A stretch of 26,864 bases of DNA. Origin: a virus. Positions 2,044 to 16,778 of this stretch are shown here, in pieces. The DNA lies in IMG/VR virus record IMGVR_UViG_3300021079_000028, positions 1 to 26,864 of that record, one strand, 5' to 3'. Below the pieces are notes generated by a model. That model was not told where the DNA came from. It did no database searches and was given only the letters and a program-made list of their open reading frames with translations. The first letter of the stretch is position 1, and the number at the start of each line of letters is the position of its first letter. A program made the translations under genes and the position numbers.

Positions 2044-2065
2044 TCGATAGGTTGGATTGACACAG

Positions 2066-2100: not shown

Positions 2101-2117
2101 CGTATTGACAAGATATT

Positions 2118-2420: not shown

Positions 2421-2429
2421 TAAATCGAT

Positions 2430-2864
2430 ATGGCAAACATCACATGCGACGAGGCGGAGACGCTGATCAACGAGATGGCGGCACTTGGATGCCGTTCTCC
2501 GCGTGAGCTTGAGTTGGCCAGGCTTGCTCTTGAGAATCGCATCGCTGTTTATTTGCAGGGTGGTGGCGCGACGCGAGGAGCGTTCAGGAGCGTCACCGCC
2601 ACTGGCACGGTGGTCAGCGGCGATTATCTGCTCATCTGCGATGCCACTGGCGGGGCGATCACGATGACGCTTCCTCCCGCTGCGCTTGTTCCGGGTCGTA
2701 TCTATGCTTTCAAGCGCATCAATGCCGGCGCAAACACGGTGACGGTCGATGGATACGGGGCAGAAACCATCGATGGAGCGGCAACTCATGTTTTGACTCC
2801 GCAATGGAATGGAGCGGTGGTGATGTCGAACGGAGTCGCTTGGTTCAAGATCATTGCGAACTGA
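2430..2864 (+). CDS. two-module small virion protein (N-terminal module plus beta domain)
   Basis: A 144-residue protein with two parts. Residues 1-40 form a short helical module (MANITCDEAETLINEMAALG, then C-R-SPREL) that recurs at the start of the next gene's product. Residues about 50-144 are strand-rich and look like the small beta domains that recur in phage fibres and appendages (TATGTVVSGDYLLICD, GRIYAFKRINAGANTVTVDG, and a terminal WNGAVVMSNGVAWFKI). The role is probably structural, on the tail or capsid surface; the short N-terminal module may be a docking element. Start is ATG at 2430, with no Shine-Dalgarno box. It ends one base before the next ATG, so the two genes are surely co-transcribed. 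Confidence 0.6.
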   Translation: MANITCDEAETLINEMAALGCRSPRELELARLALENRIAVYLQGGGATRGAFRSVTATGTVVSGDYLLICDATGGAITMTLPPAALVPGRIYAFKRINAGANTVTVDGYGAETIDGAATHVLTPQWNGAVVMSNGVAWFKIIAN

Positions 2865-2865
2865 T

Positions 2866-3075
2866 ATGGCTAACATCTCATGCGCGGATGCTTTGACTTT
2901 GATCAACGAGGCTTATGGAGCTTCGTGCAAGAGTCCGCGTGAAAGGGTTCTGTTGGAACTTGGCCTACTTTGGGAGGCATCGACTCTTGGTGGAACGGCG
3001 GACATCACTGCTGACAACACGGTTATCGATTCATCTTCGACAATGATCACTGCGGACATGACGGAATTCATCTAA
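2866..3075 (+). CDS. 69-residue protein with the shared N-terminal module and ITAD repeats
   Basis: The start is ATG at 2866, one base after the previous stop. An in-frame TTG at 2854 would overlap the upstream gene and break the similarity described here. Residues 1-35 repeat the module of the preceding gene (MANISCADALTLINEAYGA, then CKSPRE), with matching Cys, TLINE and SPRE positions. The tail (about 44-69) carries ITADNT and ITADMT. The same short motif recurs near the N-terminus of the nozzle-like protein at 16779-18668. Function is not known; a small virion component or anchor is the simplest guess. The gene is too short for a separate folded beta domain and may be a truncated paralogue of its neighbour. 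Confidence 0.6.
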   Translation: MANISCADALTLINEAYGASCKSPRERVLLELGLLWEASTLGGTADITADNTVIDSSSTMITADMTEFI

Positions 3076-3079
3076 TTTT

Positions 3080-4243
3080 ATGGCAAAACAGACCATCAAC
3101 ATCGGCGCGGCTCCGAACGACGGGACGGGTACACCGTTGCGGACGTCGTTTGATTACACCAACCAGAACTTCACCGAGTTGTACACGGCTCTTGGAGGGG
3201 GTGTCGGTCTTCCTGGTTCCACGACGCAGGTCATCTTCAATGATGGCGGAACGAATCTGGCTGGTGACCCTGGGTTGACATACGACAAGACGACCGATGC
3301 GTTGACTGTTGTTGGTGCGTTGTCGGGGTCGAAGTTGACTGTCACTGGCGGAACGATTCCGGCCAATGGCGTGTATCTGCCTGCTGCGAACACGTTGGAA
3401 TTCGCCGCCAATTCGCTCGCTCAGTATCGTATTGCTCCGCTTGGCGTGTTCAGTTGGTTTGACGGCGCAGGCGGTACGCGGATGACGCTCAATTCAACTG
3501 GCTTGGGTATTGAAGTGAGTCCTGACTTCAAGTTGGTCGTAAATGGGACACAAGCTATTCCCGCAACAAGCGGGACAGCAACTAACAATGGTTCATTTCG
3601 CATTGGAGCGCCCGGGACTGGACTAGTCATGGATTCTGGAGTCTATGCGACAGGGCCGTATTACGCATGGATACAGGCTCGTCACAGGTCAACTTACGCA
3701 ACTAATTATGACATTGCATTGCAACCAAACGGAGGAAATTTACTGGTTGGTACTCTTACAAACAACGCAAACGGTGGTGTTCTCCAGCTTAAATCGGGCA
3801 TCACGTTCCCGGCGACGCAGGTTGCTGCGACCGACGTGAACACTCTCGATGATTACGAGGAAGGTACGTTCACGCCGACTATCGTTGGCGGAACGATTGC
3901 TGGTGTTGGAGTGTATTCGGTTCAAAAGGGAAATTACACAAAAGTTGGAAACTTGGTTTTCTTTAACATTTACGTTGGAACCTCAGCGCATACAGGCACC
4001 GGAGACATGTTGATTGGAGGATTGCCGTTTACATCAAACGCAACAATCAATCAAACAAGCTCTGTAACTTTTGGTAATGTAAACAATCTTTCACTGTCTG
4101 CATCAAGCATTGTTCTTGGCTACATTACTAATTCCAGCACTTCTATTATCTTGAACCAATATCCAGCCGGTGGCGGTGCGGCTACGGCTGTTCCTATTGA
4201 TGTGGCTTGTTTATTGATGGTTTCTGGAACTTACATGGTTTAA
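3080..4243 (+). CDS. tail fibre / receptor-binding protein
   Basis: A 387-residue fibre. The first 40 residues (INIGAAPNDGTGTPLRTSF, then NQNFTELY) are the recurrent N-terminal motif of phage fibre and structural proteins that attach to the virion. The middle (about 60-235) is strand-rich, with many Thr, Gly and Asn residues. The C-terminal part begins with DVNTLDDYEEGTFTPTI, a stretch common before the distal domain of fibres, and continues with GNYTKVGNLVFFNIYVGTS. The N-terminal third and the TLDDYEEG segment use the same G/C-ending codons as the capsid gene. The stretches 3540-3785 and 3901-4240 are visibly A/T-richer, consistent with exchanged receptor-binding modules. ATG at 3080 follows a TAATTTT leader without a Shine-Dalgarno box. 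Confidence 0.78.
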   Translation: MAKQTINIGAAPNDGTGTPLRTSFDYTNQNFTELYTALGGGVGLPGSTTQVIFNDGGTNLAGDPGLTYDKTTDALTVVGALSGSKLTVTGGTIPANGVYLPAANTLEFAANSLAQYRIAPLGVFSWFDGAGGTRMTLNSTGLGIEVSPDFKLVVNGTQAIPATSGTATNNGSFRIGAPGTGLVMDSGVYATGPYYAWIQARHRSTYATNYDIALQPNGGNLLVGTLTNNANGGVLQLKSGITFPATQVAATDVNTLDDYEEGTFTPTIVGGTIAGVGVYSVQKGNYTKVGNLVFFNIYVGTSAHTGTGDMLIGGLPFTSNATINQTSSVTFGNVNNLSLSASSIVLGYITNSSTSIILNQYPAGGGAATAVPIDVACLLMVSGTYMV

Positions 4244-4249
4244 TCTTTT

Positions 4250-4627
4250 ATGACCACCACTATCTCAATCAACTGGATCATCAAACAGATTTTGGTCAAA
4301 AAGACCGAAGCATCGTTGTCTGATGTTGTCATCACGGCGAACTGGAGTTGCCGTGGATCTGATGGGGCATTTAGTTCTGCTTTGACCGGATGCGTGTCGT
4401 TCGCTCCTCCGAGCGGCGATTTCACTCCGTACGACCAATTGACCGAGGCTCAGGTTCTTGGTTGGTGTTGGGACAACGGTGTTGATAAGGCGTCTGTCGA
4501 GGCGAGCGTGGAGAAAGAGATTGTTGACCAGGCCAATGCTTCGGTCGTGTCGCTTCCACTTCCTTGGACGCCGGTTCCGGTTGTCATTGACGAGCCAATC
4601 ATTGTTTCCGAAGCTCCTGTCGCATGA
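4250..4627 (+). CDS. conserved phage protein, DUF7936-like
   Basis: A 125-residue protein. The pattern of an alternating hydrophobic N-terminus, VVITANWSCRG, a DFTPYDQLTEAQVLGW stretch around 65-80 and a following VEASVEKEI helix matches a small family often encoded near fibre genes in phages, which I recall as DUF7936. The assignment is from memory and not checked. The C-terminus is Val/Pro-rich and probably disordered. Function is unknown; a tail-associated or assembly role is inferred from its place just after the fibre gene. Its stop overlaps the next start (ATGA at 4624-4627). Confidence 0.6.
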   Translation: MTTTISINWIIKQILVKKTEASLSDVVITANWSCRGSDGAFSSALTGCVSFAPPSGDFTPYDQLTEAQVLGWCWDNGVDKASVEASVEKEIVDQANASVVSLPLPWTPVPVVIDEPIIVSEAPVA

Positions 4628-4779
4628 TCAAAATTGAACTGACGACTGAACAAGCGAATGCACTGATGCAACTCGTCGATATCGCCATCAAAGCCGGTGG
4701 TTATCAGAATGCAAAGGTCGCTGTTCCGATTGCCGACATCATCCTTGAAGCTGCAAAGCAGTCCGAGGGAACCAATTAA
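4624..4779 (+). CDS. 51-residue helical hypothetical protein
   Basis: ATG at 4624 overlaps the previous stop by four bases (ATGA), typical of translational coupling. The product is MIKIELTTEQANALMQLVDI followed by AIKAGGYQNAKVAVPIADII and a short tail. It reads as one strand followed by two helices. Small proteins with an LTxEQAN...L.D.A.KAGG pattern are common in phages and bacteria, but no function is known to me. There is no membrane segment. It ends 9 nt before the holin-like gene. Confidence 0.6.
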   Translation: MIKIELTTEQANALMQLVDIAIKAGGYQNAKVAVPIADIILEAAKQSEGTN

Positions 4780-4788
4780 AAGGCCACC

Positions 4789-4983
4789 ATGACTGGCCAC
4801 CACGCTTTTGTTCGCGATATGTCGATAGGCGTTGGTGGGCCAGTTCTTGGCCTACTCGGGAACGCGATATTTTCAGAACCAAATCTAAAAGGAGCATCGC
4901 TTGCGCTTGGTGCGCTTGCCGCCCTTTTGACCTGTGTTGTAAAATCAATCGAACTGTACAGAAAAATTAAAAACAACAAATGA
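4789..4983 (+). CDS. small membrane protein, holin candidate
   Basis: A 64-residue protein with two hydrophobic stretches, GVGGPVLGLLGNAIF (about 14-28) and LALGALAALLTCVV (about 38-51), separated by a short polar turn, and a basic tail ending YRKIKNNK. This hairpin topology with a positively charged C-terminus is typical of class II-like holins, which permeabilise the inner membrane at lysis. Its stop overlaps the ATG of the next holin-like gene (ATGA at 4980-4983). The call rests on topology and neighbourhood and not on a recognised family motif. Confidence 0.55.
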   Translation: MTGHHAFVRDMSIGVGGPVLGLLGNAIFSEPNLKGASLALGALAALLTCVVKSIELYRKIKNNK

Positions 4984-5165
4984 ACGCTTATTTTGCATCT
5001 CTGCTTCGCCATGTTTTGACCGCTGCTGGAGGTTACTTGGTTGGCAAGGGTCTTGTTTCGTCTGATCAAGCCGGTGAGCTTGTCGGTGCCGCTGTCACCG
5101 CTTCTGGTGTTGCTTGGTCCATCTATAACAACAAGAAAAACGCTGATGCAGCAGGTCAGAAATGA
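4980..5165 (+). CDS. putative holin, Pam3-gp28-like
   Basis: A 61-residue protein: a short amphipathic start, a hydrophobic segment LLRHVLTAAGGYLVGKGLV (about 8-26), a polar turn SSDQAGE, a second segment LVGAAVTASGVAWSIY (about 34-49), and a basic tail. The order 'LLRH-LTA-GGYLV-KG...A..VGA..T..GVAWS' fits a small phage holin family that I recall as Pam3-gp28. It is coupled to both neighbours by ATGA overlaps (4980-4983 and 5162-5165). Two adjacent small membrane proteins could be holin and antiholin or a two-component pore. Confidence 0.65.
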   Translation: MNAYFASLLRHVLTAAGGYLVGKGLVSSDQAGELVGAAVTASGVAWSIYNNKKNADAAGQK

Positions 5166-5341
5166 GTTTTTTGGCTGACCTGATTGTAAAACTGGTCGAC
5201 TGGCTGTTTTCTTTGTCAAAACAAGACGTATCTAGTGAAGACGCCAAGAAACAACCGGAGCTTAAGCGTGATCTGCTTGCTCGCATCGATGAGCATGAGC
5301 GCGGGGTGCGCGAGCCGAGTGATCTACGTCCCCCACGGTGA
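5162..5341 (+). CDS. 59-residue inner-spanin candidate overlapping the lipoprotein gene
   Basis: ATG at 5162 overlaps the previous stop by four bases. The product starts MSFLADLIVKLVDWLFSLSK, an amphipathic or weakly hydrophobic N-terminal segment, then continues as a charged helix (ELKRDLLARIDEHERGVRE) to a Pro/Arg-rich end. The last 107 nt are shared, in the other frame, with the outer-spanin-like lipoprotein gene that starts at 5235. That is the classical nested i-spanin/o-spanin layout. The N-terminal segment is a poor transmembrane helix and the protein is short for an i-spanin, so it could instead be a different lysis-associated peptide. Confidence 0.45.
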   Translation: MSFLADLIVKLVDWLFSLSKQDVSSEDAKKQPELKRDLLARIDEHERGVREPSDLRPPR

Positions 5342-5468
5342 GCCTGTGCGCCTCGCTGAGAGCGTCAAAGCTAAGGTTTGGGTACTTGACGCAAGCGGCA
5401 AAACGATTCGCAGCAGCAACCGCATCATCATCAGTGAAGGATGGTATGCACTACCAAAGGATAAATGA
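5235..5468 (+). CDS. outer-spanin-like lipoprotein (Rz1-type)
   Basis: A 77-residue lipoprotein starting at GTG 5235. It has a basic n-region (KTPRNNR), a hydrophobic core (LSVICLLASM) and a lipobox-like SAG-C25, so it should be exported and lipidated. After C25 comes VIYVPHGEPVRLAESVKAKV and a C-terminal EGWYALP. I recognise the 'YVP-G-PVRL-E-VKA-VWV...EGWY-LP' pattern from small lipoproteins in phage lysis cassettes. Outer spanins sit in the outer membrane and join inner spanins across the periplasm to fuse the membranes at lysis. Later ATGs (residues 19 and 21) would lose the signal peptide, so GTG is preferred despite a weak ribosome site. The residue at -3 of the lipobox is Ser, which is not ideal. 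Confidence 0.65.
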   Translation: MKTPRNNRSLSVICLLASMSMSAGCASRVIYVPHGEPVRLAESVKAKVWVLDASGKTIRSSNRIIISEGWYALPKDK

Positions 5469-5620
5469 GCAATAACGCACCGTATAAGGGTTCCGTTTCA
5501 GGAAGCGGACCTTACAAGCAGACAACCACATCAGCCTCCGCAAAAAACCCAACCAAGCCAACCACTAAGCCTATTCCGAGTGGAAGTGGGCCTTACGGAA
5601 GCGGTCCATACAAGAAGTAA
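5465..5620 (+). CDS. 51-residue GSGPY repeat protein
   Basis: ATG at 5465 overlaps the spanin stop by four bases (ATGA). The product is low in complexity. APYKG near the start is followed by SGSGPYK, then a Thr/Ser/Lys/Pro-rich linker (TTTSASAKNPTKPTTK), then SGSGPYGSGPYKK at the end. There is no membrane segment. It is probably disordered. No family is recognised. It is the last gene before the bidirectional terminator. The regular repeats and the tight coupling suggest it is translated. Confidence 0.5.
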   Translation: MSNNAPYKGSVSGSGPYKQTTTSASAKNPTKPTTKPIPSGSGPYGSGPYKK

Positions 5621-5631
5621 TCGATTCCAAG

Positions 5632-5677
5632 AAAAACCCCCCGATTGTAATAAAAACAACCGGGGGGTAATCGTTTT
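5632..5677. terminator. bidirectional terminator between convergent operons
   Basis: CCCCCCGATTGT (5637-5648) pairs with ACAACCGGGGGG (5656-5667), with one A-C mismatch, around a 7-nt A/T loop. On the plus strand it is followed by TAATCGTTTT, and on the minus strand by TTTTTC. It lies between the plus-strand lysis block and the 3' end of the minus-strand head operon, so it can stop RNA polymerase from both sides. Confidence 0.9.
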
Positions 5678-5694
5678 AGAATTTGACAAACGCT

Positions 5695-6864
5695 TCAGCG
5701 TCCAAGCGACTTCATCACGCTCGAAACGAAGTCTTCGCTCTTGGATGAATCAGCATTGCTGACTTTTCCTCCGGATGTCGTCGCCTTGGAACTGACTCCA
5801 GGCTGACTGCCGCGATACTTAGCCAGTTCGGCTTGTAGGCGCTTGTTGACCTCCACCTGAGAATACAGCAGTTCACGGTACTTGGGAGCGGCTGCGGCCC
5901 ATAGGGCGGCTTTGGCGAGGTCTTCTTCACTGTTCTCGCCGTTGAAGATCTGTCGGGCGAGATTGAGTCGGCCATTCAGTTCAGTGTTCCACTCCTCATC
6001 GTTGTCGCGAGGCTCGAAGATCTCAAGAGCGCGAGCATTCTCGCTCACCTTGGTCCAGGTCTTGGTGGCCGACTCCAAAGCGGACGCGGTATTTGCATCG
6101 CTATCCTGCCTGTACTTCGAGATAATCGCATCGTAATCGGCTTTTGCCTCGGACATCTCAGCAGACTTTTCTCCGTTGATCTCGTCGTACTTGACAATCA
6201 ATGCTCCGAGCTTCGCCTTCTTAGAAGGAGAAAGACCCTCAACAATGTCGTCGATTTGAGAGTTCCGATAATCGTTTTCGGGAGATTTGAGCAATCCGAT
6301 CAGGCGATCCCCTTCGGTCCCGACAAGCCCCTTCAACGAATCAAAAACGCCGGTGATCTTCGACTCGTACTTCTTGACGAAATCGGGATGCCGCTCGATG
6401 TCGAGCAATCGGACACGTTCGGAAAGCGCATCACGCTCCGATTGAAGAGTCTTGAACTTGGATTCAACCTCCGTGTCGGAAACCTTTCCAGCCTTGAGGT
6501 CATCAATCTGTTTGGATAGCTGCGCCTTCTCCTCCTTGATCTTGCGGAATGCGTCTGCCGCTTTCGTGGACTTGATGGATTCCGGGATGTCAGAATCAAT
6601 TTCGACGGCCTTCTCCTTGGGCTTGAACATCTGATCGATGTCCATCTCTGCGCGACTCAGTTTTTCCTGAGAGTTTGACTTTTTGCTATCGGCGGATGGG
6701 GGGGATTGCTTTTTTGCCTTGGGTTCTTCTTTGATTTCAGAAGCAACGCCATCAGCAACCGCGATGTCTTCAAGACCGCTGGCCTTGAATGCGTCGATGA
6801 ATGAGCTTCCAAAATCAGGAGGCTGTGCAGAATGGACAACGGGCGAGTTCAGTGGTTCTTCCAT
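5695..6864 (-). CDS. scaffold-like coiled-coil protein
   Basis: A 389-residue, highly charged protein with no membrane segment. The N-terminal 90 residues are low-complexity and Lys/Ser/Glu-rich. A heptad-like region (about 105-165: AADAFRKIKEEKAQLSKQID, then LKTLQ-like repeats) predicts coiled coil, a second helical region covers about 215-275, and the C-terminus (KSEDFVSSVMKSLGR) is amphipathic, as expected where scaffolds bind the capsid. A long helical acidic protein as last gene of the terminase-portal operon is a good match to a head scaffolding protein, which guides capsid assembly and then leaves. The ATG at 6864 has no Shine-Dalgarno box (AACTTTATG) and follows the previous gene by 9 nt. 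The capsid gene itself is on the other strand. Confidence 0.6.
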   Translation of the reverse strand: MEEPLNSPVVHSAQPPDFGSSFIDAFKASGLEDIAVADGVASEIKEEPKAKKQSPPSADSKKSNSQEKLSRAEMDIDQMFKPKEKAVEIDSDIPESIKSTKAADAFRKIKEEKAQLSKQIDDLKAGKVSDTEVESKFKTLQSERDALSERVRLLDIERHPDFVKKYESKITGVFDSLKGLVGTEGDRLIGLLKSPENDYRNSQIDDIVEGLSPSKKAKLGALIVKYDEINGEKSAEMSEAKADYDAIISKYRQDSDANTASALESATKTWTKVSENARALEIFEPRDNDEEWNTELNGRLNLARQIFNGENSEEDLAKAALWAAAAPKYRELLYSQVEVNKRLQAELAKYRGSQPGVSSKATTSGGKVSNADSSKSEDFVSSVMKSLGR

Positions 6865-6873
6865 AAAGTTTTG

Positions 6874-7197
6874 TTAGTTTTTATCGTCAAAGGTCGCTTC
6901 AAGTTCTTTCGTGGCATCAACTACTGACAATTTTCGCAAATTTTCAAGACAATGTGCATAACCAGCGGTGATGCCGGCGGCAAAAACAATGTCTGACTCC
7001 TTGCTACCGTGAGATGGCATTGCGATGGGCATGGACTCTGCAACGATGCGTAGAGCCATCCTGAGCACAGGATTCCGCATGATGAGCGCGAGTTCTGCCT
7101 GTTGTCCGTTGATTATCCAGTCCGCGATATTTACGTCAGGCAGTTCCAGCAAGTTCTTCGGGTTCTCTTTCGTTAAGCCGCGCATCCAGTTTATCAT
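6874..7197 (-). CDS. 107-residue hypothetical protein of the head operon
   Basis: A mostly helical soluble protein. It contains LALIMRNPVLRMALRIVAE (about 36-54) and FAAGITAGYAHCLENLRKL (about 72-90), and ends in an acidic tail. I recognise the 'NPVL..AL......S...G...GY..CL..L..L' pattern from small proteins encoded between portal and scaffold in uncultured phages but know of no function. The ATG at 7197 gives a 62-nt overlap with the preceding gene. A second ATG at 7185 would shorten the overlap only slightly. Assembly factor or minor head protein are reasonable guesses. Confidence 0.6.
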   Translation of the reverse strand: MINWMRGLTKENPKNLLELPDVNIADWIINGQQAELALIMRNPVLRMALRIVAESMPIAMPSHGSKESDIVFAAGITAGYAHCLENLRKLSVVDATKELEATFDDKN

Positions 7198-8479
7198 ATT
7201 TTGTGATCGTGTTACGTTTCAGTTTGTGTCTCTGAGGAATCGGGTCGAGAACGTCATCTAGTTTGATTGGTTTCTCGGGGGTGACGGTATCTCGTTTGGG
7301 CCGGATGACCTTGGTAATCTCCAGCATGTCGGCCAGTGGTAGCTTGATGTATCCGCAGTCAACATCGTTGATTCCATACGAAACAACGAACTGATTCTTT
7401 GAACTATCGTAGAACGCGCCGCAAGGAAAGACAACCGCAGGAAGTCCAGGCCACCAATCCTGTTGATTTGTTCCGGTAAGGATCGGAAGCGTGGTCATGC
7501 GAACGATGCGGAACGGAGCTTTGGCTTCAAAAGCGTATGCACCCATGTAATACCTACGCTTCTTGTTGATCCACGGAAGCGAGCTATGGAAGAAGGTCCA
7601 GTACAGGCCGTCCGCAAGGATAGGGTTGGAGCCGCCGCGCACTTCGCCGAACTTCCAAAGAGGATTGAACTCATCGGTCGAGTATTCCGCTTCCTTCTCT
7701 AACCGCCCATTTAGGCGCACAACGACATGAGGGTTGGAGGAATAGACCATGTGCGGAGCGTTGTCATGGACAAAGTACAGCCAGTTCTTTTCGTGACCAT
7801 CGTTCACCATCGCCTGCGACAAGTTGTTCCCGTAGACAGTATCGAATCGGCCCACGTTCAGGAACTGTTTATCAAGCAGGAACATCGCCTGATGCGCGTA
7901 CGACTTGAACGGGACAAATGTGGCGCAACTGACTCCGTACTTGTCACCAAACTTGATGACCCGAGGATCTTCAAACTGTTCGTTTGGATGCTGTGACGTG
8001 AGTTGAATCAACGCTTTCTTCGTGGCACGCAGGTCTTTGCTGAGTTCAAAGACAACGATGTCGTTCTTTTCGACGTAGACATCCTCATCCTTCTCGCGTT
8101 TATTGCGGCATCGACGAGCGAAAAGAAGGATCTTGCCATCCGGCTCTTGAATGATGGCAGGATTGAAGTAATACGTTCCAACTTCTTCGGGGAGAACAAT
8201 CTTGCCTACCTCCCAATCCACTTGTTCAGCCAGCTTTGGAACGTCATTTTTTGCGTAGCTCATAAGGAATTCAGCAGCAAATTTGATTTCATCATAAAGA
8301 GACAGCCAATGGTCGCGCTCTTCTCGAACCTCTGTCAGATGCTCTTCATTTTCAACCGCTCTCAATTCAAGTGTCTTGCGTAGATCTTCAATCTCCATCA
8401 ACAAGTCAGCTTGACCGTCTCCACCATTTGCAAATCGTTTTAGAGCCTTGATGGAAAGGCTTCGGATGATGTCTTTCAT
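7136..8479 (-). CDS. GH130-like five-bladed beta-propeller protein with N-terminal coiled coil
   Basis: A 447-residue protein. The start is taken as ATG at 8479, preceded by GGAG at good spacing; a TTG at 8497 would add six residues. Residues about 20-65 are charged and helical (coiled coil). From about 95 to 385 the motifs follow glycoside hydrolase family 130: a FNPAI strand, KILLFARR, EDPRV (about 170-174), NWLYFVHD, RGGSNPI (about 281), FFHSS, YYMGAYAFEA, VVFPCGAF (about 349) and VSYGINDVD (about 368). GH130 enzymes are mannoside phosphorylases or hydrolases. The EDPR block is kept here, but whether the enzyme is active cannot be judged. Its position beside two glycosyltransferases and two methyltransferases suggests action on, or recognition of, a sugar. 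It could equally serve as a non-catalytic sugar-binding virion protein. Confidence 0.65.
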   Translation of the reverse strand: MKDIIRSLSIKALKRFANGGDGQADLLMEIEDLRKTLELRAVENEEHLTEVREERDHWLSLYDEIKFAAEFLMSYAKNDVPKLAEQVDWEVGKIVLPEEVGTYYFNPAIIQEPDGKILLFARRCRNKREKDEDVYVEKNDIVVFELSKDLRATKKALIQLTSQHPNEQFEDPRVIKFGDKYGVSCATFVPFKSYAHQAMFLLDKQFLNVGRFDTVYGNNLSQAMVNDGHEKNWLYFVHDNAPHMVYSSNPHVVVRLNGRLEKEAEYSTDEFNPLWKFGEVRGGSNPILADGLYWTFFHSSLPWINKKRRYYMGAYAFEAKAPFRIVRMTTLPILTGTNQQDWWPGLPAVVFPCGAFYDSSKNQFVVSYGINDVDCGYIKLPLADMLEITKVIRPKRDTVTPEKPIKLDDVLDPIPQRHKLKRNTITKYDKLDARLNEREPEELAGTA

Positions 8480-8493
8480 TATGTTCGCTCCGG

Positions 8494-9093
8494 TCAATCT
8501 GGGATCTCTGTGTCCAACTGGTCTGCGACCCTTGGGATAATCGAATATGAATTCAGAAGATGACTCGATCTGAAGAAGATCAGCAAATCAATTGGCGCGG
8601 AAATTTCAACCACCGTTTCGAGCAACGTCTTCAACGCTTTTCGTCGCACAATGTACGCATGCGTGCAGAGCGGGTGGCATCGATACAGAGCATTGCCAAC
8701 CTTTTCACCGACACGGCCCTGGGTGCAGCATGACCCGACAAAAATCATGTCCCAATCTTTTGGAACTTCTTCCAGAGCGAGGTTGATGGATTCTTTCCAT
8801 CCATCCCGAAGCATCACGTCATCTTCAAATATAAGCCAATGATCATTCTCATCTGACAGTTCAAGCGCGCTCCACAGCATGATGTGCGACATCGTGCAGC
8901 CGATATGCTTTGGTCCGATATGTTCTGATCCGCTTGGGTCGTCACCTGTATACGGGATGGTTGCTTTAAGACCGGACTTTGCTCCGTTGAACCCATAGAA
9001 AAACTTGAACTCTTGGACACCATATCCCTTGAGCCTTTCACTGACGGGTCCAATCCTCTCCGACCCGCGTTGCGTTATTACAATCGGTATCAT
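8494..9093 (-). CDS. glycosyltransferase family 25-like protein
   Basis: A 199-residue protein. The start is ATG at 9093, overlapping the previous stop (ATGA at 9090-9093). A longer in-frame version reaching 9201 would run far into the upstream gene. GT25 features: N-terminal IPIVITQRGSERIGPVSERL; a middle HIGCTMSHIMLWSALE helix (about 63-78); LIFEDDVMLRDGW (about 87-99) with the metal-binding EDD; DWDMIFVGSCC; and a THAYIVRRKAL segment. GT25 enzymes transfer galactose or glucose in LPS-type glycans. Acceptor and donor are unknown. It is slightly shorter than usual for the family. It is in the middle of the head operon, between a methyltransferase and the GH130-like gene. Confidence 0.78.
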   Translation of the reverse strand: MIPIVITQRGSERIGPVSERLKGYGVQEFKFFYGFNGAKSGLKATIPYTGDDPSGSEHIGPKHIGCTMSHIMLWSALELSDENDHWLIFEDDVMLRDGWKESINLALEEVPKDWDMIFVGSCCTQGRVGEKVGNALYRCHPLCTHAYIVRRKALKTLLETVVEISAPIDLLIFFRSSHLLNSYSIIPRVADQLDTEIPD

Positions 9094-9710
9094 TTCTTGG
9101 TTTTTTGATAGATCGAGAACACGCTTTCTTTCATGTCGAAGCGGGCAGTCAGCGAGCAGTATTTCTCGGCAAACCGGATAGCGGTCTGCGTGGAATCCCA
9201 ATTCACATCATCCATGATCAGATAACCGCCGACCTTGAGCTTTGGAAGCCAGTTGACGACATCGCTGGTGGACGGCCATTCAGCATGGTTGGCGTCGATG
9301 TGGACCATATCCATATCCGGGAGCGACCTCGAAGCATCCCAAGACGACATGCGGCAGAACTGCATCTGACGAACAACCTGAGCACGGACACAGTGGCCCA
9401 CAAAAGCCTCGTAGTGGCCGTCCAGGTCCAGCTTCGACCACCATTCTTGGTTGGGGTTTGTCTCGTCATCGATGCAGTCCTCTTTTTTCCATGAGTCGAT
9501 TGCATAGACGGTTCCGCTACCGTTGAGCTTGCAGGCATAAGCCAGAGCGAGCGTTGACTTGCCCTCGAACACACCGACCTCCGCGATATGTTGAGGCTTG
9601 TGGTCGAGAACAAGGCTTCCAATCTGGAACCCCTTTTCAGGGTCGCACCATCCACCCATCTTTGGATAATGGATTGATACAAAGTCTTTTAGCAATTCAT
9701 GCGGAGTCAT
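9090..9710 (-). CDS. class I SAM-dependent methyltransferase (TylF/Methyltransf_24-like)
   Basis: A 206-residue protein. The SAM-binding motif I is AEVGVFEGKSTLALAYA (about 43-59), preceded by GFQIGSLVL. The acidic end of strand 2 is YAIDSW (about 69-74). The motif MVHIDANHAEWPSTSDVVNW (about 135-154) and then VGGYLIMDDVNW (about 160-171) fit the metal-assisted sugar or macrolide O-methyltransferase type (TylF-like, Methyltransf_24). It is therefore likely to O-methylate a sugar or related small substrate, in keeping with its glycosyltransferase neighbours. The ATG at 9710 and the stop at 9090 both form ATGA overlaps with adjacent genes. Confidence 0.78.
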   Translation of the reverse strand: MTPHELLKDFVSIHYPKMGGWCDPEKGFQIGSLVLDHKPQHIAEVGVFEGKSTLALAYACKLNGSGTVYAIDSWKKEDCIDDETNPNQEWWSKLDLDGHYEAFVGHCVRAQVVRQMQFCRMSSWDASRSLPDMDMVHIDANHAEWPSTSDVVNWLPKLKVGGYLIMDDVNWDSTQTAIRFAEKYCSLTARFDMKESVFSIYQKTKK

Positions 9711-10273
9711 AATGGATAGATATATGTTACTGATTTTCTAAACGCAGGCTCATTGAACACGCTGATCATTGTTGATCTCGGCCAACAAATAGGGTCAGAG
9801 GCGATACTCAACGGCCTGTAACCACCATCTTGGATGTCGTTTGTGTTTCCTGGATACTCGTTGACGACAAGCGCGGATTTATGCCTGGAAGAAATCGTGT
9901 CCAGAATCTTTCTACACCTCGAAAACTCAAGATGTTGCAACACGTCTTTGATATGGACCAGATCAAATGATTCGCGGATGTCTACTATTTCTCCAACGCT
10001 GATGTCTGTTCCAGCCGGCGCGCGATTCTTGGCGATTTCAACCGCAACCGCGCTGACATCGATTCCTTTGTACCTGATACCGGACAAATCAACCATCGAC
10101 ATCAACTGCCAATCTCCGCAGCCAACATCTAATATCGACTTGATTGAGTTCTCGCGGATGAACGAGTTCAGGAACTCGACGTACTTGATCGTGTTTTGTG
10201 CATGAGATCCGGGTCCAGATCCTCCGTTCCACTCATCGTTCCGATAGATTCGGTCAAAGGTATTTTGAAGCAT
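9707..10273 (-). CDS. class I SAM-dependent methyltransferase (Methyltransf_11/23-like)
   Basis: A 188-residue protein with the N-terminal signature FDRIYRNDEWNGGSGPGSHA (about 6-25), which I know from methyltransferases in glycan-modification clusters. SAM motif I is SILDVGCGDW (about 46-55), the ribose-contacting residue follows in YKGIDVS (about 68-74), and motif IV-like SFDLVHIKDVLQHLEF is at about 101-116. The target is not evident; a sugar is likely from context. It overlaps the upstream glycosyltransferase by 20 nt and the downstream methyltransferase by an ATGA. Confidence 0.78.
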   Translation of the reverse strand: MLQNTFDRIYRNDEWNGGSGPGSHAQNTIKYVEFLNSFIRENSIKSILDVGCGDWQLMSMVDLSGIRYKGIDVSAVAVEIAKNRAPAGTDISVGEIVDIRESFDLVHIKDVLQHLEFSRCRKILDTISSRHKSALVVNEYPGNTNDIQDGGYRPLSIASDPICWPRSTMISVFNEPAFRKSVTYIYPL

Positions 10274-10985
10274 ACTCGCAATAAGTGTTTTCTCGTTTCA
10301 AAATGATCTCCTCTGTCAATGAGCGCATCGTCTGGTCGTGATAGGTCCGCCACAAGTGGGCGATTGAACATCCAGTAAGAGAATGGATTCCATACCAATA
10401 CTTATTTGATTCACAATGGATGAACCCTAACATCTCAAAGTCAACAACCTTGGCTAGTCCGGGATTTTCTTGATGCAACTTCATTGGGTACTGGACCGAG
10501 ATCTCGTTCCATCCGCTGCCGTCAAACTCCTGCCACTTCTGGAGCCACTTCCATTGGAACCGGCTGTGCATCTTGGAGAACATCACCGCGTTGCACAGGC
10601 CGATGGTCGGGTCCGAACCGCAGAACTCGCGACCGATGACCGTGTCGTGATCAAGCCAATCTTTTGGAAACGGAGCGACCGTGATGGTGTCGGTGTCGGC
10701 ATAGACTCCGCCCATCGTGTACAGGACGGTGTGGCGGATCAGGTCGGCTCGATGCTGATGCTTTGGGATGTTGTTGCCGTTCCACTGTATCGGGTTGTCG
10801 ATCAGCATCACGCGGACCGGAACCTTGGCCTTGAGCTTTTCCCATTGTTCGCCGGTTGGTTCCTTAGGCGTCCAAAGAAAAACGCTCCAGTCCGGGTTGT
10901 TTACCCAAGCTGAAGCGATTGCAATCCGTTCGCAGATGTGGAATCCGTCGTCGTGAAGGCCGTGTACGAAATGTATGTTTTTCAT
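10254..10985 (-). CDS. glycosyltransferase with DXD motif (GT32-like)
   Basis: A 243-residue protein. ATG at 10985 lies two bases after the portal stop. A GTG at 10991 would add two residues and overlap it. N-terminal KNIHFVHG and VNNPDWSVFLWTP, then the block HQHRADLIRHTVLYTMGGVY (76-95) followed by ADTDT (96-100), form the family hallmark: RAD for donor binding and D97-T-D99 as the DXD metal site. This is the 'Gly_transf_sug' domain of GT32-type transferases, which use nucleotide sugars (mannose, galactose or glucose). It is the first gene of the glycan-related island, directly behind the portal gene. No membrane segment is seen, so it is probably cytoplasmic. Confidence 0.82.
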   Translation of the reverse strand: MKNIHFVHGLHDDGFHICERIAIASAWVNNPDWSVFLWTPKEPTGEQWEKLKAKVPVRVMLIDNPIQWNGNNIPKHQHRADLIRHTVLYTMGGVYADTDTITVAPFPKDWLDHDTVIGREFCGSDPTIGLCNAVMFSKMHSRFQWKWLQKWQEFDGSGWNEISVQYPMKLHQENPGLAKVVDFEMLGFIHCESNKYWYGIHSLTGCSIAHLWRTYHDQTMRSLTEEIILKRENTYCEYASKYL

Positions 10986-10987
10986 TA

Positions 10988-13231
10988 TCACCGCGCCAAG
11001 TCAGACTCGGCAGTTGCGTTCGCTCGCTGGATGTCCGCAGTCGTCTTCGCATTCCTACGGGACAAATCTGCGCTCGTCTTTGCGTTCTGTCGTTGGATGT
11101 TGGCCATCGTCTCCGCATTCTGGCGAGCAATTTTTGCTTGGATATCCGCGTTCATCACAGCGGTACGAGGGTCAGTACCCTGCTGGATGGCCTGCGCCTG
11201 CTGCATCTGCGCCTGACCCTGCTGCTGTTGCTGGATCATCTGCCCAAGCTGTTCGATGGTCTTGCCAAGCTCCTGGAGGTGCTGCGCGTATCCATCAACC
11301 TGTTGCCGGCGAGCGGGGTCAGTGGAAAGACGCTGCAAATGGTCTTGGACGTGTTGCCCGATACCCTGCATGAACAACATGATTTCCTGTGGATTGCCAC
11401 CGCTCTGGAGCGATGAAGCAGCTTGGTTTGCCGCAGCCATGTGCGTGTCGATATGGATCACGTGGTCCTGCGTGTCGGTGACAATCGGCATATTGCTCTG
11501 GTGGATGGACGCATGTTCGAGAACGGCAAGAGCGGCTTGGTCCTGGATGCGCGACGATTGAATTTGAGTTGGCAGATACCTATCCACCATCTGCTGACCA
11601 ACCTGAGCCGCGATGTAGTCCTTGAGCAGATTGATTTTGCCACCTTCAGGAAGTGCGCCAGAAAGACTGAGCAAAGAACCAAGCAACTGCTGTTTTGCAA
11701 ACTGAGAACCTTGGCCAACCGTCCGAGTAGCTTCAACGAAATCAATATCCATCATGGCTTGCACGGGAACACCGCGCTCTTTGCATCGACGCTGGAACTC
11801 GATGGCGTCCTTGTCAGACTTCGTGATTGGGTTCAGGTTGGGATTTGAAGCGCGGTTGTATCGTTCCTCAAAAAACGAATCGAGTTGGTTGTAGTACCGG
11901 CTCAACTGAGTTTTACCAATCGCAGACTGCTGCGACACCATCACGTTCACCTCGAACGCCGTCTTGGGGTTTCCCTGGGGCTTGGAGAGCGATTGCCTAT
12001 ACTGCGACAGGTTTCCTTGGAGCACGTTCTCAAGTTCCGCGTTGACCGCCATAGGCGCATCTAGGACGCCGGCGATGTTCTGCTGGATGACTTCGTAATC
12101 AGGAGGAAGAATTGCGTACGGACCCTGCTGTACCACGCTCGTCTTGCTAAGGGCATTCGCGTTGAGCGGTCGGAACAGGATCTGAGTGCGAGCGAATGCG
12201 GCATCAACCATCGCGCAACGGAGTCGGTTCTTCAACTCCATCGCCTGCAACATCTTGATTCCAAGTCCCTTGACGCCGTGATGCTCGCCGTCGCCACGGT
12301 CGTAGTACATCGGATGGATGACCTGCTCCCATCGACTGAATCGACGCAGCTTCCGGTACATGAACCCCTGGCTGTCGCGCTCATCGATGATGGCGTGACT
12401 GATCTTGCCATCGAATTCTTTGTAGAAGACATGGCACATCAACACCACCTCGGACCGCGCAGAAAACGTGATATCGTTTGAACGAAGCTGACGTTGGAAA
12501 AACTCCCAATCGTACTGCACACCAGAGCGATACGGTTCAGGCATTGCCGCACGGATACGCTGACGTACATAATCTACGTTCCATCCGGTGGCTTTTGCGG
12601 ATTCCTCGTCTTGAATCTTTTCAAACAAGTCATCTACACCCATCCGGGTACGGACAAGAGCAACCTTCCAATCGCTGACATTGGACTTGGTTCCATCAGG
12701 AACAAGCAAATCATTCGCCATGATGGCTTTGCATCGCCAATCGGTAGCGTCCTCAAAAATCAATGGACCATCTCCAACGAGAACCATCTCTCGTTGCGAC
12801 AACTGCATGATGTAATCAAAATCTTTGTCGAGCTTCTGAAGGCGGTCGAACTCTTCGGTGATGATCTTCGACCAATCCTCCCGCTTATCCATGTCGTTTC
12901 CGTAACCAGTGCGGATATTGGCATAGGTCGGAACCTCGGCGAACACGTCATAGAATGAAGCCATCGCGAGCGATAGAAACGCTTCAGACTCGCGGAAGTT
13001 CACGTTGGTTCGGAACGCTTGGTTGTTTCGACGTAGCTCCGCCGGATTGTACGGAGGATTGCCATCGACAAGTCCGCGCAGCTTGGAGCGCGTGGCATTA
13101 CGCAACTGATCGGCCATGATCAGCTTCTGGAAGATTTCGCGGGCGGAAGCCGCATCAGCAAGGCGCGTCTCAGGAGCCTTACCGTCTTCATCGATGGTTT
13201 CGAGCGGGAGTTGGACTAGGTTGCCGTACAT
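10988..13231 (-). CDS. portal protein (podovirus-type)
   Basis: A 747-residue protein that should form the 12-fold ring at the DNA entry vertex. Supporting features: its place after the terminase, the size and composition of podovirus-type portals, a central region rich in aromatic and charged residues (RSGVQYDWEFFQRQLRSNDI), GDGEHHGVKGLGIKMLQAME followed by KNR, and a later Gln-rich helical half. The last 55 residues form an 11-residue repeat (MANIQRQNAKT, SADLSRRNAKT, TADIQRANATA, plus degenerate copies before and after), predicting a long right-handed helical barrel or tube, as in portals with an extended C-terminal barrel. ATG at 13231 overlaps the upstream gene by 16 nt. Confidence 0.82.
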   Translation of the reverse strand: MYGNLVQLPLETIDEDGKAPETRLADAASAREIFQKLIMADQLRNATRSKLRGLVDGNPPYNPAELRRNNQAFRTNVNFRESEAFLSLAMASFYDVFAEVPTYANIRTGYGNDMDKREDWSKIITEEFDRLQKLDKDFDYIMQLSQREMVLVGDGPLIFEDATDWRCKAIMANDLLVPDGTKSNVSDWKVALVRTRMGVDDLFEKIQDEESAKATGWNVDYVRQRIRAAMPEPYRSGVQYDWEFFQRQLRSNDITFSARSEVVLMCHVFYKEFDGKISHAIIDERDSQGFMYRKLRRFSRWEQVIHPMYYDRGDGEHHGVKGLGIKMLQAMELKNRLRCAMVDAAFARTQILFRPLNANALSKTSVVQQGPYAILPPDYEVIQQNIAGVLDAPMAVNAELENVLQGNLSQYRQSLSKPQGNPKTAFEVNVMVSQQSAIGKTQLSRYYNQLDSFFEERYNRASNPNLNPITKSDKDAIEFQRRCKERGVPVQAMMDIDFVEATRTVGQGSQFAKQQLLGSLLSLSGALPEGGKINLLKDYIAAQVGQQMVDRYLPTQIQSSRIQDQAALAVLEHASIHQSNMPIVTDTQDHVIHIDTHMAAANQAASSLQSGGNPQEIMLFMQGIGQHVQDHLQRLSTDPARRQQVDGYAQHLQELGKTIEQLGQMIQQQQQGQAQMQQAQAIQQGTDPRTAVMNADIQAKIARQNAETMANIQRQNAKTSADLSRRNAKTTADIQRANATAESDLAR

Positions 13232-13845
13232 GGTCGTTTTTTCCAGCAGTGATCCGGAAGGTTTTCGTTCTCTGTACTGTCTGCAAATTTATAGAGCGTT
13301 TCAATAGGAAACCATACCAGGCTCCTGATAAAGCAACCGCAAAACTCACAACTTTGTAGCTGTTCGTCAACAGGGGTGCTTCCATGTTGAGAAAATGTTT
13401 TGACAGCATCTTTCAATACTCGCGCATTACATCCTGTGCATCCAAGCGGCTTTCTATTGAATCGACATCCAGCGCAGATGTTGGCGCGACGATTCGCCTC
13501 TTCTTGGCCCACTTTCCCTCCACCGATGGTCAATCCGTGGAGAAGACTCATGCTGAAACGGATAACGTCACCAATCTCCAATGATTTGCGTCCAGCCGGC
13601 TTGGATAGCTCGACCTCGTCGTACGTGCAATCAGCCCCATTTCGGCACGCATATTCAACAATCAGGTCATCAAGGTTTCCCGGTATCTGGATAGCGTTCG
13701 CATTGTAATGGTTCTTGATGAACTCATGGAGTTGTGGCCATGAACCGCCAGCAATCTCAATGCCTGTCTCTGGAACCCGATAATGCCATCCACCGGGGAT
13801 GACCATGTGTTCGTTCAAGATTTTGTATCCAGTTCTTTTGTTCAT
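13216..13845 (-). CDS. Cys-rich, probable zinc-binding protein between terminase and portal
   Basis: A 209-residue protein of unknown function. The N-terminal half contains GGWHYRVPETGIEI and a helix followed by a YACRNGADC stretch. The C-terminal half has closely spaced cysteines: RRANICAGCRFN, PLGCTGC, SCEFCGCF and a final DHCW. The CxxC...CxxC...CxxCxC spacing suggests one or two zinc sites. The start ATG at 13845 overlaps the terminase stop (ATGA) and the end overlaps the portal start, so all three are translated from one message. It could bridge terminase and portal or bind DNA. It does not look like a typical small terminase subunit. Confidence 0.65.
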   Translation of the reverse strand: MNKRTGYKILNEHMVIPGGWHYRVPETGIEIAGGSWPQLHEFIKNHYNANAIQIPGNLDDLIVEYACRNGADCTYDEVELSKPAGRKSLEIGDVIRFSMSLLHGLTIGGGKVGQEEANRRANICAGCRFNRKPLGCTGCNARVLKDAVKTFSQHGSTPVDEQLQSCEFCGCFIRSLVWFPIETLYKFADSTENENLPDHCWKKRPCTAT

Positions 13846-15527
13846 CCTTCGATTTGTTCGTCGTGATAGATTGAATCTGCTTCACGGACCAGCTTTTCCC
13901 AAACTTTGTCAACTTTAGTTGCTCTAGGTTCAAGGACAGCAGTTTTGCGAACCAAATCAAGCAAGACTACAGCTGCGTCGGCCAAGTCAGGCGATTTGCC
14001 TGTGCGTTGCTTCATCACGGTCTTGGTTTCAACGGATATCTTGCGCTTGGAATCGTCGAACATTCGCGCGCAGAACTCCTGAAGCGTCTCGATGTCCATT
14101 CCTCCGACACGTTCTTCGACAACCCATTTACGCATCGAGAACCACAACTCTGTCACTTTTCGGTCGTATGCTTCGTTGCATGGCCTTGAATCCTCATCGC
14201 TGACCGGGATGGTCGAAGCGGATCCGCCGAACTCGACTCGATGAACAACGCCCCATTCTCGGGTCAATATGTCGGCCAATCCACCTCCTTCGCCGCTTGA
14301 ATCCAGAGCAAACTTGTCCGGTGGGACTCCTCGCTGAGAACATTCTTCTTTTACCCGGTTGGCAATCTGGTAATGGACCGGCTCGGTTAGCTGTGCATTT
14401 GGAGAAATATGGATCACGTCTCCAAAAAGAATGCTTACTTTATCGTTAGCGGTTCCAACTTTTGCAAAACGAAGAACGCATCGATCACCACCAAAACCGG
14501 GGTCCAAGCCGGCGACAACTTGGACGTTGGTAGTAAACACCAATTTTCTTGTAGGTGTGTACGTCTCGATGATCGATTCCGACAGAACTGTCTTCACCAT
14601 TCCGTCCGGCGACCAGAACCCGCGTGTGTACTTCCAGAACGTAGGAGACTGCTCGCCCTCATGGCGCATGGCCGACAGAACTTGGTCGTGCGTGATCAGA
14701 TAGGGATACTTCGTGCGTCCCTCGCTGATGTTTGGAGACTTCATGCCGTCAAACCGTCGGCACATGCCGCGTTCTGTAAGCCAATGCTGATCCTCGATGG
14801 TGACGCTGCGCCATCCCTTTGCCGGCGTGCAGAACCGTCCATGAGGGTCGTACTTTGACGCAGGGTTCCCGATGACGAGCATCTTGAACTCGCGACAGCC
14901 TTTGCTCAGGTTTGTGCAAGCCTCGAAAGCAGCTTCGGGGGTGTCCGTAGCTTCGTCGATGATGACCATCACCCGCTCTGCATGGATACCCTGGATGTTG
15001 GCCACCGCCTTGGACGTGTTTCCTTCAGCGACAGCAATCGCGGATATCGAGTGTCGATCATCGCCCTTGATTGCCTGCAAAGACATCTTGGAATCGACCA
15101 TATTGCCGGGGAATCCGCGCGATTTGCGGACCAATTCTTGAAGATTGGCCCACATACGCTTCCGGATCATCTTCGCCGTGGTGGAAGTAAGCACGACGGT
15201 TGTCTTTGATGGATTGGCTAGCCACCAGACAGTTGCAAAAAGCGTTGCACCAAAGGTCTTTCCGCTTGCTCCGCATCCTGCCCATCCAACGTAATCATGT
15301 TCGCAAAGGCTTTCTACCTGAGCTTCTAGCCAAGGATTCCAACTCATCTTCGGCCATACCATTTTGCTGACGTTGACAAAATGGTTGAAGGTTCCAAGTC
15401 CGCCTTCATTTGGCTGAAGACGATTGCGAAATGCGTACAGTTCTAGTTCAAGATCTGGAATCTTGACCGGGGAACGAATCCCGTACTTGTGATTGATCAA
15501 TGGATGCTCAGACACTGGTTCAGACAT
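13842..15527 (-). CDS. terL: terminase large subunit
   Basis: The DNA-packaging motor, 561 residues from ATG 15527. This start has AAGG seven bases upstream. A longer version from 15593 would overlap the divergent fibre gene. Walker A GCGASGKT (84-91), Walker B VMVIIDEA (186-193, with the catalytic E), and a coupling segment MLVIGNPAS downstream define the ATPase. The RNase H-like nuclease has D342 in AGLDPGFGG, D409 in FALDSSGEGGG and a C-terminal acidic PDLADAA (about 513-519). It cuts and threads concatemeric DNA through the portal. First gene of the minus-strand head operon. No small terminase subunit is seen next to it. Confidence 0.93.
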   Translation of the reverse strand: MSEPVSEHPLINHKYGIRSPVKIPDLELELYAFRNRLQPNEGGLGTFNHFVNVSKMVWPKMSWNPWLEAQVESLCEHDYVGWAGCGASGKTFGATLFATVWWLANPSKTTVVLTSTTAKMIRKRMWANLQELVRKSRGFPGNMVDSKMSLQAIKGDDRHSISAIAVAEGNTSKAVANIQGIHAERVMVIIDEATDTPEAAFEACTNLSKGCREFKMLVIGNPASKYDPHGRFCTPAKGWRSVTIEDQHWLTERGMCRRFDGMKSPNISEGRTKYPYLITHDQVLSAMRHEGEQSPTFWKYTRGFWSPDGMVKTVLSESIIETYTPTRKLVFTTNVQVVAGLDPGFGGDRCVLRFAKVGTANDKVSILFGDVIHISPNAQLTEPVHYQIANRVKEECSQRGVPPDKFALDSSGEGGGLADILTREWGVVHRVEFGGSASTIPVSDEDSRPCNEAYDRKVTELWFSMRKWVVEERVGGMDIETLQEFCARMFDDSKRKISVETKTVMKQRTGKSPDLADAAVVLLDLVRKTAVLEPRATKVDKVWEKLVREADSIYHDEQIEG

Positions 15528-15581
15528 AGTTTGGCCTTGCAATAGTTCTCGCTGCGATTGAGGTTCTGCGAAAGGAAAATT
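15528..15581. promoter_or_regulatory. divergent intergenic region of the two late operons
   Basis: This 54-bp gap separates the terminase start (minus) from the fibre start (plus). It contains the ribosome sites of both genes (AAGG for terL, AAAGGAAAA for the fibre gene). I cannot see a convincing -35/-10 pair on either strand. The promoters may use non-consensus boxes or lie inside the neighbouring genes. Confidence 0.35.
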
Positions 15582-16775
15582 ATGTCGTCGCAACTTGTTT
15601 CTTCATCCGGTTGTTGCACCCCTTGCGACACGACTCCGATTGTCGTCAACATCCCTGGACCTCAAGGCGCGACTGGTGCTGCTGGCGCGAACGGAACGAA
15701 CGGAATCAATTCGTTTTGTACGACCACGGCATCGTTTATCACCCCCGCTCTTGCGTCTAGCGTTTTGGTTTATGTAAACGCAACGGACTTTCTTCCTGAA
15801 TCGGTTGCTGGTCAGTTCTTTGTATCCGTGCAGGGTCTAGGATACATGCAGGTCACGTCGGTTGATGGGCTTCAATTGACCCTTCAGAATCCAGCCTCCG
15901 GATTGTTGAGCATCCCGAACGCGATTCCGACCACGGTTATCCCTATTGGTTCGCTCATCAGCCTCGCTGGAGCAATTGGACCTCAAGGAACTCCTGGACT
16001 GGCCGGTGGAGCTTCTTCGGCTGGAACGTACATCGTTCGTGTTCCTGATGCTTCGATTCCTAGCGCGACCGCTCTTAACTCGCTTTCTGCTGGATATGTA
16101 AAAACCCTTGGAAGCGCAGGATCTGGAGCGATTAACACTTCTCCCACTGTTCCGATTGCAGATATCAGCGGTGTCTTGACTGTCGCAAAAGGCGGAACCG
16201 GGGTCGCAACTGTTCCGACCAATGGACAGATCCCGATTGGAAATGGTTCTGGATACACGGTCGCAAGCCTTACCGCTGGCGCGAACATCACAATCACACC
16301 CGGCGCTGGCACAATCACCATCGCTTCTGGAACTGCTACGTTCAACTACGTCACGTTCACCCGTAGAGTGACCGGAAGCGCGTTGTCGTTCCTTACGTAT
16401 CTTACGCTAAGGAATCCATTTAGCCTTACAGACTTTCCATCAGGAACTTGGTCAACGCTTGATTCAGCTTCTGGATTTGTAGCGGCAACTGGTCGATACG
16501 TTGTTCCTTATACTGGATATTATAAGATTGATGTTGTGTTAAACATAAGCACAACGCCATCTCCTTCTACCACGCTTGAGATAAAGAAAAACGGAGCTTC
16601 TATTTTCACAAGTCTAGCTTTTACGCCTGGTGCAACAGAGGCTCCGATTGCATTTTCATACATTGATCAAGCGTCAAATGTTGGTGACTATTATGAAGTT
16701 TCAATCACAGCGGCAAACACGCTGCTTGCTGTGAACGCTGGTTCTTCATTCTCTGTGCAACGAATCCAAGCCTAA
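15582..16775 (+). CDS. fibre with collagen-like triplets and C1q-like C-terminal domain
   Basis: 397 residues from ATG 15582 (AAGGA six bases upstream; an in-frame TTG at 15558 would overlap the terminase leader). The order is a Cys-containing N-terminus (SGCCTPCD); five Gly-X-Y triplets (GPQGATGAAGANGTNG, about 25-40); a globular section; more triplets (GPQGTPGLAG); a fibre repeat (ISGVLTVAKGGTGVATVPTN, then ITITPGAGTITI); and a C-terminal beta domain with ATGRYVVPYTGYYKIDVV, LEIKKNGASIF and NVGDYYEVS, resembling the C1q/TNF jelly roll. Collagen plus C1q-like heads make trimeric stalks with a binding knob. Probably a receptor-binding or accessory fibre on the virion. Confidence 0.75.
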   Translation: MSSQLVSSSGCCTPCDTTPIVVNIPGPQGATGAAGANGTNGINSFCTTTASFITPALASSVLVYVNATDFLPESVAGQFFVSVQGLGYMQVTSVDGLQLTLQNPASGLLSIPNAIPTTVIPIGSLISLAGAIGPQGTPGLAGGASSAGTYIVRVPDASIPSATALNSLSAGYVKTLGSAGSGAINTSPTVPIADISGVLTVAKGGTGVATVPTNGQIPIGNGSGYTVASLTAGANITITPGAGTITIASGTATFNYVTFTRRVTGSALSFLTYLTLRNPFSLTDFPSGTWSTLDSASGFVAATGRYVVPYTGYYKIDVVLNISTTPSPSTTLEIKKNGASIFTSLAFTPGATEAPIAFSYIDQASNVGDYYEVSITAANTLLAVNAGSSFSVQRIQA

Positions 16776-16778
16776 CCG

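Follow-up and report, generated by a model that had tools for sequence, protein, structure and literature searches.

Background

Among tailed phages, virion glycosylation has been reported for a small number of mycobacteriophages, in which it was linked to antibody recognition. Bacterial O-antigen and capsule serotype loci carry a variable set of transferase and methyltransferase genes between conserved flanks, and this set is exchanged as a block.

The cluster O mycobacteriophages have the gene order portal, O-methyltransferase, three glycosyltransferases, protease and capsid (PMC4351075). The record of the phage Firecracker exhibits the same layout of portal, O-methyltransferase and three transferases (gp33-gp36; Corndog gp35-gp38). 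Its methyltransferase matches the TylF and Methyltransf_24 families (1.8e-12 and 1.7e-9, respectively), and its last transferase matches GT25 (2.9e-5). According to PMC12363180, which cites Freeman 2023, glycans are present on the virions of Corndog, Che8 and Myrna, and capsid glycosylation requires Corndog gp38. Corndog gp38 and Firecracker gp36 are equal in position and length (621 bases). Phage-encoded virion glycosylation beside the portal gene is of a known kind.

Here we describe a locus in a 26,864-nucleotide stretch of viral DNA (IMG/VR record IMGVR_UViG_3300021079_000028, hereafter the window). Four glycan-related genes of this locus are exchanged en bloc among close relatives, whereas a fifth, which encodes a GH130-like propeller, is constant. 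As far as our searches go, the combination of serotype-like cassette exchange and a constant propeller is new.

Organization of the operon

The operon begins with terL (at 15593), and its last gene, in the scaffold position, ends at 5695 and is followed by a strong intrinsic terminator (Table 1). The identity of terL is certain from its sequence. The other positional names follow the order in Sinorhizobium phage phiM5 (terL, ~200 aa, 747 aa, a small gene, scaffold), whose record marks the portal and scaffold as detected in particles (proteome). Searches for portal and scaffold homology using PDB, PHROG, NCBIfam and hhalign were all negative, and the portal name therefore stays positional. The 209-aa gene has no family match in Pfam or in further family searches. 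A 412-aa protein is probably the major capsid protein, although a family match confirming this identity was not found. The preliminary description had placed the glycan-related genes inside a head-morphogenesis operon. This setting holds by sequence for terL and by position for portal and scaffold, but the likely capsid gene lies on the opposite strand to the scaffold-position gene and apart from it.

Table 1 Positions of the operon genes and associated features in the window
Feature	Position	Strand	Remarks
Terminase large subunit (terL)	13842..15593	-	First operon gene; PHROG terminase 2.7e-22
209-aa gene, terL/portal interval	13216..13845	-	Position only; counterpart in place is the phiM5 putative peptidase
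Portal-position gene, 747 aa	10988..13231	-	Synteny with phiM5 portal; upstream border of exchange slot
Exchange slot	8484..10977	-	Just after portal stop to just before propeller start
GT32-like glycosyltransferase, 243 aa	10254..10985	-	Pfam Gly_transf_sug 1.3e-12; first gene of window cassette
Class I SAM methyltransferase (Methyltransf_11/25), 188 aa	9707..10273	-	Pfam 1.1e-7; PHROG methyltransferase 6.6e-21
Methyltransf_24 protein (CmcI/TylF-like O-methyltransferase type), 206 aa	9090..9710	-	Pfam 6e-19
GT25-family glycosyltransferase, 199 aa	8494..9093	-	Pfam Glyco_transf_25 6.1e-14
GH130-like five-bladed-propeller protein, 447 aa	7136..8479	-	Pfam Glyco_hydro_130 5.7e-9
p107, 107 aa	6874..7197	-	Overlaps end of propeller gene
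Scaffold-position gene, 389 aa	5695..6864	-	Synteny with phiM5 scaffold; no family match
Strong intrinsic terminator	5636..5668	-	13-bp stem, 8 G-C pairs, T-rich tail
Likely capsid gene, 412 aa	805-2043	+	~89% conserved

Five open reading frames are indeed present on the minus strand (7136-10991) between the portal-position gene and the p107/scaffold pair. Their tight coupling, as had been proposed, is evident from the 2 bases that separate the portal stop from the GT32 start and from two ATGA overlaps among the middle genes. Three gene starts were revised: GT32 likely starts at 10985, GT25 at 9093 (with an ATGA overlap) and the propeller at 8479, where the gene has a GGAG ribosome site of its own shortly before the ATG and from whose methionine the relatives align.

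The geometry of the operon fits co-transcription. Terminator-like matches within it are weak (5-7 bp stems), and their total for the region is below that of shuffled sequences. The junctions terL-209-aa gene, 209-aa gene-portal, propeller-p107 and p107-scaffold are each invariant across 293-334 of the loci listed, counts that take in more than one locus from some contigs. In 334 loci among these matches, p107 overlaps or abuts the propeller gene, and the median overlap is ~60 bases. Every operon gene is under purifying selection (dN/dS ~0.01-0.17), and the gene set is therefore not a chance one.

Elsewhere in the window, about 1 kb between the convergent operons (4628-5635) contains no convincing gene, and a plus-strand gene at 75-626 encodes a DUF5843 member (Pfam 4.5e-10).

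Enzymes encoded in the cassette

The family labels given in the preliminary description (GT32-like, two methyltransferases, GT25-like and GH130-like) are all backed by Pfam. Catalytic motifs of the transferases are intact. The GT32 protein scores 48.7 bits (cut-off 23), and its DxD motif (D97-T-D99) is invariant in an alignment of relatives. The GT25 protein scores 52.8 bits (cut-off 24), and its EDD metal motif (E90-D91-D92) is invariant over four diverged subtypes. For the Methyltransf_24 protein, the nearest solved relatives are O-methyltransferases (3cbg, 5.2e-6; 2hnk, 3e-5). The more specific TylF-like label is weak for the window protein (TylF E-value 0.036, below the cut-off), but does fit MT24b, its counterpart in an alternative cassette (2.6e-6, above the cut-off). 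A match to the PADLOC entry mad2 was a weak one to a generic methyltransferase and was dismissed.

An AlphaFold2 model of the GT25 protein has a pLDDT of 90.6. In Foldseek, its best PDB matches are mimivirus R655 (8.5e-15) and then human collagen galactosyltransferase COLGALT1 (8.9e-12), followed by bacterial beta-1,4-galactosyltransferases; a PBCV-1 capsid glycosyltransferase was also matched. The sequence search agrees with this ranking. The predicted fold, of the GT-A type, is thus closest to that of protein galactosyltransferases. No cassette protein has a membrane span (maximum 19-residue hydropathy ≤1.59). Among 50,697 phage records, we found no usable cultured relatives of the portal-position, GT32, Methyltransf_24 or propeller proteins.

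Exchange of the cassette among relatives

We scanned IMG/VR with the propeller, the portal-position protein, two alternative-cassette genes and a bacterial propeller, keeping the best 80 matches per scan, which means that the sampling favours close relatives. Among the matches listed, ~380 loci belong to one clade. The scans with alternative-cassette genes and the bacterial propeller returned this same clade and no distant phages beyond it. A search of a genome collection gave a single match, a 4.8-kb contig (L159) that is binned with Nitrosomonadales but derives from a phage of this clade. The bin is a weak hint of the host, because the contig is itself phage.

Removal of identical slots left 85 distinct portal-to-propeller intervals, which have 10 architectures among the matches listed. 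The most frequent is MT24-GT25b-MTx-GTy (31 of 85), followed by the window type, GT32-MT11-MT24-GT25a (21), GT32-MT11-GT25c-MT24b (10), GTz-MTx-GTy (8), GT32-GT25c-MT24b (5) and MT24-GT25b (4); the remaining slots are rarer mixes. At least one GT25-family gene and at least one methyltransferase gene occur in all 85 listed slots, and GT32 occurs in 37. The alternative-cassette genes match Pfam Glyco_transf_25, Glyco_transf_7C and Methyltransf_24/TylF. For MTx, the sole match is to Methyltransf_25 and lies below the cut-off, and GTy falls just short of the GT25 cut-off. Two five-gene slots (L361 and L380) contain the MT24-GT25b-MTx-GTy set and a second Methyltransf_24 gene, and are possibly a recombinant intermediate between cassette types.

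Pairs of relatives exhibit the exchange directly. In a blastn comparison of the window with a close relative (L002), the flanks are 96.4% identical over 10978-18540 and 95.9% identical over 4230-8483. Of the ~2.5 kb in between (8484-10977), only 9168-9665 aligns, i.e., ~500 bases of the MT24 gene, at 82%. In five of seven further close pairs, similarity likewise ends immediately after the portal stop and resumes at, or within ~20 bases of, the propeller start. The other two (L254/L377 and L196/L194) share more of the cassette and realign somewhat before the propeller. A 73-row tree of portal DNA requires at least 30 changes of the cassette label, where the minimum is 9 for 10 labels and shuffled labels give 42.9; a portal-gene tree can be blurred by recombination, and the 30 changes are therefore an estimate. 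When only the starred branches of this tree are counted, one type requires 13 changes and another requires 8.

The preliminary description had treated the five adjoining genes as one island and had suggested comparing gene order in relatives to see whether the island is replaced as a block. Block replacement is what we see, but of four genes, and the propeller belongs to the conserved core. We found no support for the four cassette genes encoding structural proteins unrelated to glycans; the propeller might be such a protein, although its GH130 active-site positions are conserved.

A second diversity hot spot in the window is a plus-strand tail-fibre-like gene (3080-4243). It is hypervariable, such that the fibres of 39 relatives form 37 clusters.

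The GH130-like propeller

The similarity of the propeller to the GH130 profile is real but distant (35.8 bits against a Pfam cut-off of 26; PDB match 5b0p, 1.8e-4). The protein has, in addition, a helical or coiled-coil N-terminal extension (approximately residues 1-95) and a basic C-terminal tail. Copies in relatives are 78-98% identical to that of the window, with dN/dS of 0.04-0.07. Among the matches listed, the propeller is found in all 303 loci with portal and p107, and every portal locus with 3.5 kb of sequence downstream contains it. An AlphaFold2 model built with 15 close homologues reached a pLDDT of 39.9 and was not used.

Residues of the GH130 -1 subsite have been named previously (PMC4264767). 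The propeller's catalytic and -1 subsite positions N106, D171 and D372, as well as H298, are invariant in the clade, and two of them, D171 (within ED(P/A)R) and D372, are matched in alignments with solved GH130 enzymes. However, the Arg of the phosphorylase HRP stretch is Asp or Asn in the propeller, with the His kept, in alignments to both 5b0p and 7fip. Phosphorolysis by this protein is therefore doubtful.

Comparison of the propeller with cultured phages at E-values up to 10 gave only partial matches, in unannotated records. The closest cellular copy among the matches listed (L302, 31% identity) is bacterial. Its gene (940-3495) encodes a fusion to a polysaccharide pyruvyl transferase and adjoins a WcbI capsule gene, which is a biosynthetic setting. 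The other bacterial propellers resembled typical GH130 proteins and were not considered further. The PHROG profile phrog_28262 (765 positions) matches GT32 (window 10254-10991) in its N-terminal part and the propeller (7136-8497) further on. This profile suggests that other phages have a natural GT32-propeller fusion, and such a fusion would imply a functional link between the two.

Proposed function

We propose, with a probability of roughly 0.6, that the island is a module for virion glycosylation whose specificity can be exchanged. In this view, the operon would be transcribed late, with terminase, portal and scaffold. The two glycosyltransferases and two methyltransferases would be cytosolic and would use nucleotide sugars to decorate at least one virion protein with a short methylated glycan. 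Other relatives would do so with a different set of GT25, GT7-like and methyltransferase genes. The propeller could perform a step common to all types, such as core sugar transfer, trimming or acceptor holding; its constancy would make sense if it either catalyses a core step shared by all types or holds the acceptor. The cassette has clean borders and a conserved gene on either side, and recombination within the flanking sequence would therefore swap it, giving different coat sugars to close relatives. A bolder and more tentative version is that the locus is a phage “serotype locus”, in which glycan cassettes are swapped via a fixed slot and the propeller is a new, non-phosphorolytic biosynthetic enzyme or scaffold serving every cassette.

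The preliminary description had offered both virion decoration and late remodelling of host surface glycans. We consider the latter unlikely, yet it is the alternative that survives best. Under it, modification of the host LPS or capsule would let progeny avoid debris and exclude other phages, and cassette swaps would track host glycan types. The GT25 and GT32 families are indeed common in LPS and capsule loci, GT25 enzymes also build LPS, and the cassette families more generally serve LPS synthesis. The capsule-related surroundings of the closest cellular propeller point the same way. Moreover, in the gut “Gratiaviridae”, a transferase lies between portal and capsid genes, and capsule modification against superinfection has been proposed (PMC8008677). 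However, none of the cassettes was found by hydropathy and family scans to encode a membrane-anchored transferase, a flippase or an acetyltransferase, and the genes are in the head operon rather than in an early or lysogenic unit. Cassette type also showed no one-to-one correspondence with tail fibre type among the 39 relatives compared, whose fibres are nearly all different. Virion decoration is favoured by the cluster O layout, the predicted GT25 fold, which is nearer to protein galactosyltransferases, and the absent membrane spans.

It is improbable that the propeller is a virion part, i.e., a lectin-like decoration or connector, and that the swapped enzymes build a glycan that it binds or displays. 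Its conservation resembles that of a structural protein, it is coupled to p107 and the scaffold, it has a coiled-coil N-terminus and it is never swapped, but a pure binding protein need not keep N106, D171, D372 and H298 invariant. Most improbable is modification of phage DNA or another small molecule by enzymes whose position is incidental: the Methyltransf_24 protein has one PHROG match that carries the label DNA methyltransferase (8.5e-14), but only ~130 of the 599 positions of that profile are matched, Pfam and the nearest solved structures indicate O-methyltransferases, both methyltransferases lack a DPPY/NPPY-type DNA methylase motif, and the known phage DNA glucosyltransferase families do not include GT32 or GT25.

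If the module glycosylates virions as we propose, the repeated clean exchange between near-identical phages suggests strong natural selection for changing the sugars of the particle surface (or, in the host-directed alternative, of the host surface). The window type and the L002 type form a natural pair that differs mainly in cassette and tail fibre over the sequence compared, and the effect of the glycan could thus be tested directly. The propeller, constant while the neighbouring transferases vary, also offers a lead towards an enzyme step not yet described.

Comparison with known systems

The cluster O module resembles that of the window in lying after the portal and before head genes, with its genes coupled on the same strand, where portal and scaffold in the window are named by position. 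Both contain an O-methyltransferase of the TylF/Methyltransf_24 kind and several transferases, one of them GT25. The Firecracker and window GT25 proteins are 29% identical over 69 aa (pairwise E-value 2e-9). The methyltransferases share a Pfam family, with no direct BLASTP similarity in the pair compared. By contrast, cluster O has no counterpart of the propeller, and no sequence match was found between its portal or capsid and those of the window, which indicates an unrelated phage lineage. The cluster O GT25 is also nearly static (98.9-100% identical among the 30 records listed), whereas at least 30 changes of cassette type are estimated for the present clade.

GH130 mannoside phosphorylases and GT108 mannosyltransferase-phosphorylases share with the propeller a similar domain, the catalytic Asp, the subsite Asp and the His. 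They differ in that the phosphorylases have the HRP Arg, and the propeller scores 42.5 bits against a curated phosphorylase cut-off of 550. The window protein also has the extra N- and C-terminal parts and biosynthetic operon partners.

PBCV-1 and mimivirus, which modify virion proteins, likewise encode their own enzymes of GT fold, and these give fold matches to the window GT25; both are large DNA viruses of eukaryotes with genomes unrelated to the window. The gtr seroconversion clusters include a membrane flippase and a membrane-spanning transferase, unlike the cassette with its lack of membrane spans. A lone GT25 gene in Burkholderia phage AP3 lies outside the head genes.

The bacterial O-antigen and capsule loci resemble the slot in their variable gene set, conserved flanks and exchange as a block. 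In contrast to those loci, the slot lies in a phage head operon and contains two to five genes, among which we saw none for a polymerase, a flippase or sugar-nucleotide synthesis. The cassette swap thus resembles a viral counterpart of the switching of coat type that bacteria perform with their surface sugars.
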